64,000 nt of DNA from Desulfobulbus sp. Tol-SR (GTDB lineage: Bacteria; Desulfobacterota; Desulfobulbia; Desulfobulbales; Desulfocapsaceae): positions 81,159 to 145,158 of the forward strand of contig JROS01000055.1 in NCBI GenBank assembly GCA_000769715.1, written 5' to 3'. This document shows positions 47,134 to 48,321 of this stretch, piece after piece; position 1 is the stretch's first letter, and each line of letters opens with the position of its first letter. Made by a program: the position numbers and the translations under genes. Under the pieces are notes generated by a model. That model was not told the origin of the DNA and searched no databases. It saw only the letters and a program-made list of their open reading frames with translations.

Positions 47134-48321
47134 TCAGGCAAAGGCGCTCCAGATCCACAGCCCCAGGGCAAGCGTCGTGCCGCCGAGCTGGAAGACGAGG
47201 CCCCGGCGCATTTCCAGGCCAACCCCCGAGAGCGAGGTGTAGGGGGTGGAACCGGTGAAGTTCATCGCCAGGTAGGAAGCGACGCTGGCGGCCCACAGCA
47301 CGAGGGCGGTTGCGGCGGGCAGGTCGGCAGCCCAGGTGGTCGGCAGCAGGGCGGCCATAGCGGTCAAACCGCCGACCAGCGCCCCCTTGAGCCAGAACTG
47401 GCGGCCGGGGATCCAGGGCAGCAGGAGCGGGGTGAGAACCGCCCCGGCCAGCACCGCCAGCAGGGAGGCGGTAATCGCCTGGATCCCCCTGACCCCGGCG
47501 GCGCTCAGGGAATAGATATCCGGGCCGATGCCGGAGATCAGGACGAGGACCACCGTTGCCGCAAGGAACGGCTTCCACAGCAGACAGATTTCAACCGGGA
47601 TCAGCACCGCCCGCTCGCCGGCCCCGAAGGTCACCGTGCGCATCGTCTCGTCGGCCTGCCGGCCCCGGTGAAGGTAGGCGGGAAGGTCCTGGGCCCGGAT
47701 CGGGCCGAAGACGCCGTCGAAGCCGCAGGCCTTACGCAATCTGCCGGCGGCCACCCCCACTGCGGCCAGCTGCGGCAGGATGAGCTGGCGGTGGCGGACG
47801 ATTTCGGCCAGTCGGCTGATCTTTACCTGGTAGGCCACCTCTGCGGTCGAGAAAGTCTTCTTGCCGGCGGCGCACCAGACGTTGATGCCGCGGGTGTCGA
47901 CGACGAGGATCCAGGCATCGATGCCGGGCAGTTGACGCCGCAGGGCGTCGAAGCTCAGCTTGTAGTTGGCGGTGACGAGGACCGGCGAATCCGGGCCTGG
48001 CTGGCCGACACCGTACAAGCCTGGTATCGCTCGGTAATTGCTGCGACAAAAACCGCTCCTGGCGCCGATGGTGCCGAGGTTGTCGCGCCAGGCGAGGGCC
48101 GTGTCGACCAGCGGCACCGGACCGGCCGCCGTGTCGATGAAATCGGTGACATAGGGAACGATCCGGTAACCGGGACGCTCGTGGACCCCTGACCGGGGAT
48201 CGGGTTTCGGGCCTCAGCAGGGGGCGGCATCACCGTGATCGGCCGGCGGCGCCAGGGGGGAGGCCATGGGCAGGGTGGGAAAGGGCTGCAGATTCATATC
48301 GTGTTGGAGTTCGGGTTTCAT
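47134..48321 (-). CDS. hgcA: mercury methylation corrinoid protein HgcA, probable selenoprotein (in-frame TGA at 48214-48216)
   Basis: The frame of 396 codons starts with an ATG that overlaps the arsR stop (ATGA, 48318-48321) and contains one TGA at codon 36, after Cys35. HgcA identity is firm: VLVTANYKLSFDALR, the corrinoid cap-helix motif INVWCAAGK (Cys150 here), a C-terminal half with about five membrane helices, and MNFTGSTPYTSLSG near residue 353. Between the TGA and the first GTG (48117) the sequence still reads HgcA-like (PGYRIVPYVTDFIDTAAGP) and has no ATG, GTG or TTG, so a start after the TGA would truncate the protein. A SECIS-like hairpin follows the TGA. I infer Sec36 (Cys-Sec). 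Alternatives are a sequence error at this base or a decayed 5' end. Confidence 0.85.
48184..48216 (-). promoter_or_regulatory. candidate bacterial SECIS element with UGA codon
   Basis: Starting at the UGA (48216-48214) the mRNA has, from base 16: GA, an unpaired U, CCCC, loop GGUCA, GGGG, UC. The pairs are GA/UC and CCCC/GGGG with a bulged U at position 18 and GGUC at positions 23-26. The E. coli fdhF element has its bulged U at 17 and GGUC at 22-25, the features SelB recognises. The spacing therefore differs by one base. Confidence 0.7.

Follow-up and report, generated by a model that had tools for sequence, protein, structure and literature searches.

The hgcA gene of the window, the whole 64,000-nucleotide stretch of DNA from the sulfate reducer Desulfobulbus sp. 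Tol-SR that was analysed, carries a single in-frame TGA at codon 36, and this UGA is very probably decoded as selenocysteine (Sec), presumably by SelB. A Cys35-Sec36 pair had been proposed in an earlier, sequence-only reading of the window, and it is now supported by the alternation of TGA and Cys at this codon among relatives, by the presence of TGA throughout the sampled genus, by a hairpin whose stability lies at the energy limit for such elements, and by the Sec genes of the genome. We consider the whole explanation, in which HgcA with Sec36 would use a Cys-Sec pair on an N-terminal arm to bind Hg(II) for the corrinoid domain, to be probable on balance.

The hgcA reading frame and its neighborhood

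Read through the TGA, hgcA (47134..48321, minus strand) encodes 395 residues and scored 413.2 bits against NF040863 (cut-off 275). The frame had previously been described as 396 codons with one TGA at codon 36; the single internal TGA was found as described, whereas the length is 395 codons followed by the TGA stop (47136-47134), the count of 396 including that stop. The predicted Sec codon (48214..48216, minus strand) is directly preceded by the TGC codon of Cys35 (48217..48219, minus strand). The start codon is tied to the preceding gene, as had been noted: the ATG of hgcA (48321-48319) shares the ATGA at 48321-48318 with the stop of an arsR-like regulator gene (48318..48626, minus strand; NF033788, 73.6 bits, cut-off 55). 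On the other side lies hgcB (46827..47120, minus strand; NF040864, 108.3 bits, cut-off 99), which encodes a dicluster ferredoxin with a C-terminal Cys-Asn-Cys, and the operon order on the minus strand is arsR-hgcA-hgcB. A 461-residue frame that follows hgcB in the same orientation (window 45214-46599) appeared protein kinase-like by eye (GSGAYGDVW, HRDIKPEN).

The cap-helix motif NVWCAAG is present in HgcA, with Cys150 as the cap Cys. The only PDB sequence relatives at E ≤0.001 were four CFeSP large (gamma) subunit sequences, which matched within residues 97-217. This subunit (PDB 2h9a, 2ycl, and 4c1n) shares the corrinoid domain, matched to HgcA residues 99-217, but the membrane domain and the N-terminal pair of HgcA both lie outside the match; the CFeSP subunits belong to the CO dehydrogenase/acetyl-CoA pathway.

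Codon 36 in related HgcA genes

The order was sampled with 193 genomes, 102 of which had HgcA above the NF040863 cut-off. We took 99 of these loci together with the window, omitting two fragmentary matches, and the cap-helix motif was found by script in 97 of the 100. At the column of codon 36, for which an alignment of related N termini had been suggested as a check, TGA and Cys alternated: 59 of the 97 readable genes had Cys-TGA, 21 had Cys-Cys, and 17 had no pair; in this last group, L033 is truncated at the edge of its contig. The genus was represented in the order sample by four genomes, the window's own and that of the isolate Desulfoprunum benzoelyticum DSM 28570 (L053 = L119) among them, and each carried Cys-TGA. 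Being present in every sampled genome of the genus, the TGA at codon 36 is more than chance.

The 27 codons before the TGA were compared with those of three genus relatives. The window gene differed from that of D. benzoelyticum at two sites, both synonymous, and from L067 by 12 synonymous and 3 nonsynonymous differences, whereas 19 of the 27 codons differed nonsynonymously from L051 in an ungapped comparison. Judged by these codon differences, the tail before the TGA is conserved as protein with respect to two of the three relatives and, without gaps, not with respect to the third. In an alignment of the window protein and 20 orthologues from the order that have the Cys form, the pair kept its column (Cys in 20/20) within an otherwise variable tail; because these rows had been picked for Cys-Cys, the alignment demonstrates no more than a common position for Sec and Cys.

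Predicted structure and possible role of the Cys-Sec pair

An AlphaFold2 model of HgcA was built from 19 sequences (mean pLDDT 80.7, pTM 0.71). Residues 1-36 had pLDDT values below 50, and the folded core began at approximately residue 58, with a first core strand at residues 58-64. Five long C-terminal helices (residues 234-394) in the model would fit the HgcA membrane domain. The Cys-Sec pair is thus likely to sit on a flexible, disordered N-terminal arm.

Bacteria convert mercury to toxic methylmercury by means of HgcAB. Selenolates are strong ligands of Hg(II), which they bind more tightly than thiolates do. On the basis of this affinity, the flexible arm, and the Cys tail of HgcB, we propose that the Cys-Sec arm would collect Hg(II) and present it to the methyl-corrinoid of HgcA, and that HgcB, via its C-terminal Cys residues, would work alongside the arm and complete the transfer. 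The Cys residues of the flexible HgcB tail have been proposed as movers of Hg(II) or methylmercury (excerpts of PMC7305189). As a handle for Hg(II), the Cys-Sec arm would be a strong candidate, and it would link methylmercury output to selenium supply; that the pair is indeed a mercury-binding arm is plausible, with chances that we put at about even. Its necessity is called into question by the pair-less HgcA genes (17/97) and by the formation of methylmercury with HgcAB of strain ND132, whose HgcA was probably tail-less, as described below.

The position of hgcA beside hgcB, its matches to the mercury-methylation equivalogs, and the general chemistry of selenolates as strong Hg(II) ligands speak against another use of the Sec residue, in which the pair would be a redox center or would catch arsenic or another metalloid rather than mercury. 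This use is possible, although we regard it with some doubt; it is favored by the overlap of the arsR-like gene with hgcA, by the lack of the pair in part of the HgcA genes (17/97), and by the control of hgcAB by ArsR and the arsenic response that have been reported in ND132 (excerpts of PMC10349881).

A hairpin accompanies the TGA codon

Under the mercury-arm reading and the metalloid or redox reading alike, UGA encodes Sec, and a SECIS-like hairpin, GAUCCC-CGGUCA-GGGGUC (48184..48201, minus strand), was found behind this codon. Its loop lies 18 nt after the UGA, its stem has 6 bp, and its energy is −7.5 kcal/mol; the loop consists of 6 nt, with G at the second place and GGUC within it. Loop, stem, and spacing agree with bSECIS-type criteria, and the energy is exactly at the limit of the bSECIS model (−7.5, as quoted in the part of PMC13188914 that was available). 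Taken as a whole, the 47-nt stretch was not more stable than its shuffles (z +1.19; 180 of 200 shuffles were at least as stable), and an Rfam search gave no SECIS match.

As a control, each set of genes was subjected to 20 synonymous-codon reshufflings, with distinct genes only. The best hairpin of each gene was examined, and its loop began 17-21 nt after the codon in 48 of the order's 50 Cys-Sec genes (15-28 in the reshuffled sets), in 69 of 71 Cys-Sec genes from elsewhere (30-42), and in all six Sec-Cys genes (1-4), whereas it was observed in 20 of 102 Cys-Cys genes (13-23 reshuffled). The energies showed the same pattern: values of −7.5 or below were reached by 32/50 Cys-Sec genes of the order (7-17 reshuffled), 57/71 Cys-Sec genes elsewhere (11-23), and 5/6 Sec-Cys genes (1-4), compared with 16/102 Cys-Cys genes (10-20). 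These results show that the hairpin accompanies the TGA codon and not the Cys codon.

Most Cys-Sec genes of the order (55 of 59) had GGG or GGU at a constant position, at which none of the 21 Cys-Cys genes had it. At the seventh position past the pair, 58/59 Cys-Sec genes encode Arg, but no Cys-Cys gene (0/21) does; 19 of the latter encode Pro there. Among those 58 Arg codons, 56 ended in GG (CGG 48, AGG 8), whereas elsewhere in these genes 40% (457/1138) of the Arg codons did. The protein thus seems to carry an imprint of the RNA loop in the form of PRSG or PRAG. Shared ancestry could be the source of the amino acid part of this motif, but the synonymous, codon part is harder to explain in that way. 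The loop motif differs outside the order. Furthermore, fixed-register pair counting in 150 distinct ungapped Cys-Sec stretches gave a peak at the expected register (i+j=47, 58.6% paired), with 25.8-50.4% paired in the other eleven registers; in the 57 order stretches, registers 46 and 47 tied at the top (56.6 and 56.1%), and therefore weight was put on the synonymous-codon control instead.

Selenocysteine genes in the genome

The presence of selA, selB, selC, and selD in the same genome had been named as a check on the Sec reading, and profile searches recovered all four above their cut-offs (selA 633.4 bits, selB 349, selC 69, and selD 371.2). The anticodon of the tRNA-Sec (selC) is TCA. Since selB was above the cut-off in 165 of the 193 genomes of the order, its presence does not discriminate. 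By eye, a selB match better than 1e-80 was missing in 7 of the 59 order genomes with Cys-Sec HgcA, all of them drafts (G025, G093, G098, G118, G122, G129, and G192).

Two minor observations were made in the window's genome. The selD gene (L017, G000:C50) has an in-frame TGA in AAGUAAK and is itself a predicted selenoprotein gene. A second, partial selB-like match (L009, G000:C74:13010-13879; 191.8 bits, model positions 1-264) lies near a contig end.

A start after the TGA and a sequencing error as alternatives

The first possible start after the TGA is a GTG at residue 69 (48115..48117, minus strand), and, in line with the sequence-only reading, no ATG, GTG, or TTG occurs between the two. If the UGA were an ordinary stop, HgcA would begin at this available GTG and the upstream reading would be a leader; the resulting 327-residue protein keeps the corrinoid motif, and databases carry such short HgcA forms. 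However, the predicted core strand lies at residues 58-64, so that initiation at residue 69 would encroach on the core, deleting this strand together with residues conserved in the Cys-form orthologues. The earlier claim that a start after the TGA loses family sequence is borne out in both respects, and for these losses a truncated HgcA from GTG 48117 was rejected. Moreover, the codons before the TGA are kept as protein in two of the three relatives, and the hairpin follows TGA codons rather than Cys codons. An ordinary stop at codon 36 is therefore very unlikely. The genome containing the window is a draft in 203 contigs, but gene decay or a sequencing error has a negligible probability: the same TGA occurs in the D. 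benzoelyticum isolate, in two further genomes of the genus, and in 59 of the 97 readable order genes, which contradicts a read error at 48214-48216.

The public D. benzoelyticum protein (P0005) is a 330-residue "hypothetical protein". It is shorter than the read-through frame, indicating that translation was annotated from a point past the Sec codon.

Distribution of predicted Sec-containing HgcA

Reading UGA as Sec, we classified the pair in HgcA genes beyond the order. In a named collection, the best 80 of 579 loci were taken and 78 were readable, with 19 Cys-Sec, 2 Sec-Cys, 36 Cys-Cys, and 21 pair-less genes. Of the 395 genomes in the phylum sample, 113 had a match with E no higher than 1e-60; 105 loci were taken, and the 99 readable ones comprised 32 Cys-Sec, 4 Sec-Cys, 32 Cys-Cys, and 31 pair-less genes. 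A further 54 loci, all readable, comprised 28 Cys-Sec, 24 Cys-Cys, and 2 pair-less genes. The class around Desulfovibrio sp. UBA6079 was also sampled, with HgcA in 70 of 297 genomes; 41 distinct loci, mostly best-scoring or single-contig, yielded 39 readable genes, namely, 31 Cys-Sec, 1 Gly-Sec, 6 Cys-Cys, and 1 pair-less.

The readable loci of the order, the named collection, the phylum sample, and the further set of 54 were pooled, giving 328 loci, and after repeats and cores that were short or contained a stop or X had been dropped, 297 distinct HgcA cores remained. Among these, 121 were Cys-Sec, 6 Sec-Cys, 102 Cys-Cys, and 68 had none, giving Sec in the pair of 127 cores; the samples are uneven and many loci are best-scoring, so these proportions should not be taken as population frequencies. 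When the "none" rows were omitted, a FastTree tree required at least 13 changes between Sec and Cys, compared with a mean of 75 and a lowest value of 67 in 200 label shuffles. Isolates with Cys-Sec HgcA include Geobacter sp. AOG2 (L319), Geobacter sp. FeAm09 (L339), and Oryzomonas sagensis (L338).

Several genes departed from the Cys-Sec arrangement. The reversed pair, Sec-Cys, was found in L189, L198, L241, L256, L265, and L280 (SAR324, Desulfarculaceae, and others), and no mention of this order was met in the excerpts of the literature consulted. In L403, L274, L283, and L278, an in-frame TGA stands at approximately the same place with no adjoining Cys (Gly-Sec, Sec-Ser, etc.), and genes of this type were tallied as "none". 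In L155, L356, L385, and L390, an in-frame TGA lies further upstream (CUPPK or UPPK); because the script classed these genes as Cys-Cys or none, the Sec share is probably undercounted.

The reference HgcA of ND132

HgcA of ND132 (Pseudodesulfovibrio mercurii, F0JBF0) resembles the window protein in its corrinoid core, cap-helix Cys, membrane domain, and partner hgcB (excerpts of PMC7305189). Its cap Cys is residue 93, whereas that of the window HgcA is residue 150, and the annotated protein is without the N-terminal arm; from what is seen in relatives, its start was probably placed after the Sec codon. In the literature, as far as the excerpts extend, the ND132 numbering has the cap-helix Cys93 and, at the cofactor, Thr60, Thr66, Val91, and Ala153 (PMC7305189); position 1 of the ND132 hgcA is a "GTG putative start codon" (PMC5038027); and HgcA of BerOc1 is 69% identical to those of ND132 and D. 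aespoeensis (PMC5255934).

We applied this numbering to 23 Cys-Sec genes (22 of the UBA6079 class and L359) by setting the cap Cys to 93. In 23/23 genes, residue 1 then corresponded to a Val codon located 22-23 codons past the TGA, and this codon was GTG in 15. The cofactor positions were retained in most genes: Thr60 in all 23, Thr66 in 21, Val91 in 20 (Ile in the other 3), and Ala153 in 21. All five ND132 positions agreed in L364, L372, and L374, in which the GTG gives 338 residues; L368 (= L394, taken as D. aespoeensis Aspo-2) has Ile91, and its GTG start likewise gives 338 residues. The ND132 numbering thus lands on a GTG 22 codons past the Sec codon in D. aespoeensis and its kin, indicating that the ND132 protein that has been studied was probably tail-less.

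From these relatives, we infer that the ND132 hgcA would also have a Sec arm upstream of its annotated start. It is quite likely that ND132 HgcA is a selenoprotein whose arm was lost through a GTG start 22 codons after the Sec codon, that the "full-length" numbering, modelling, and recombinant protein are tail-less, and that the Sec-armed form predominates among the HgcA proteins of Desulfovibrio-like sulfate reducers. When ND132 HgcAB was made in E. coli, methylmercury was formed in lysates (excerpts of PMC11588087). If the Sec arm holds true for ND132, the published biochemistry and models cover the HgcA core only. One amplicon method discards reads that contain stop codons (excerpts of PMC7573106); pipelines that drop such reads, or that place the HgcA start at the following GTG, would overlook the arm in many sulfate and iron reducers.

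Relation to described selenoproteins

No Sec-containing HgcA had been known to the sequence-only reading, but one is already in print. A 2026 review (PMC13188914, in the part available) lists HgcA as a prokaryotic selenoprotein (NF040863, motif CU, WP_250697417.1), citing Haft and Gwadz 2023. Among the papers listed in literature searches on HgcA and selenocysteine, no others were seen to mention such a protein. The listed protein is of the same NF040863 family and has the same Cys-Sec motif as the window HgcA; hence, the window gene adds a member and not the idea. What is added here is the occurrence of predicted Sec in 127 of 297 distinct cores, the at least 13 Sec/Cys switches, and the consequence for the ND132 reference protein. 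The term "HgcA" does not occur in the main text of the deep-Sep paper (PMC12013277), and neither "CO dehydrogenase" nor "acetyl-CoA synthase" occurs in the main text of the 2008 GOS paper (PMC2398784).

HgcB is also listed in a Sec form, with the motif GVGU (PMC13188914, same part), whereas the ferredoxin coding sequence of the window hgcB lacks a Sec codon. Near a conserved Cys73-like site, the window HgcB reads GCGC, in contrast to GVGC in many relatives, and its C terminus is CNC. This extra Cys of HgcB accompanies many, although not all, of the Cys-Sec HgcA genes of the order.
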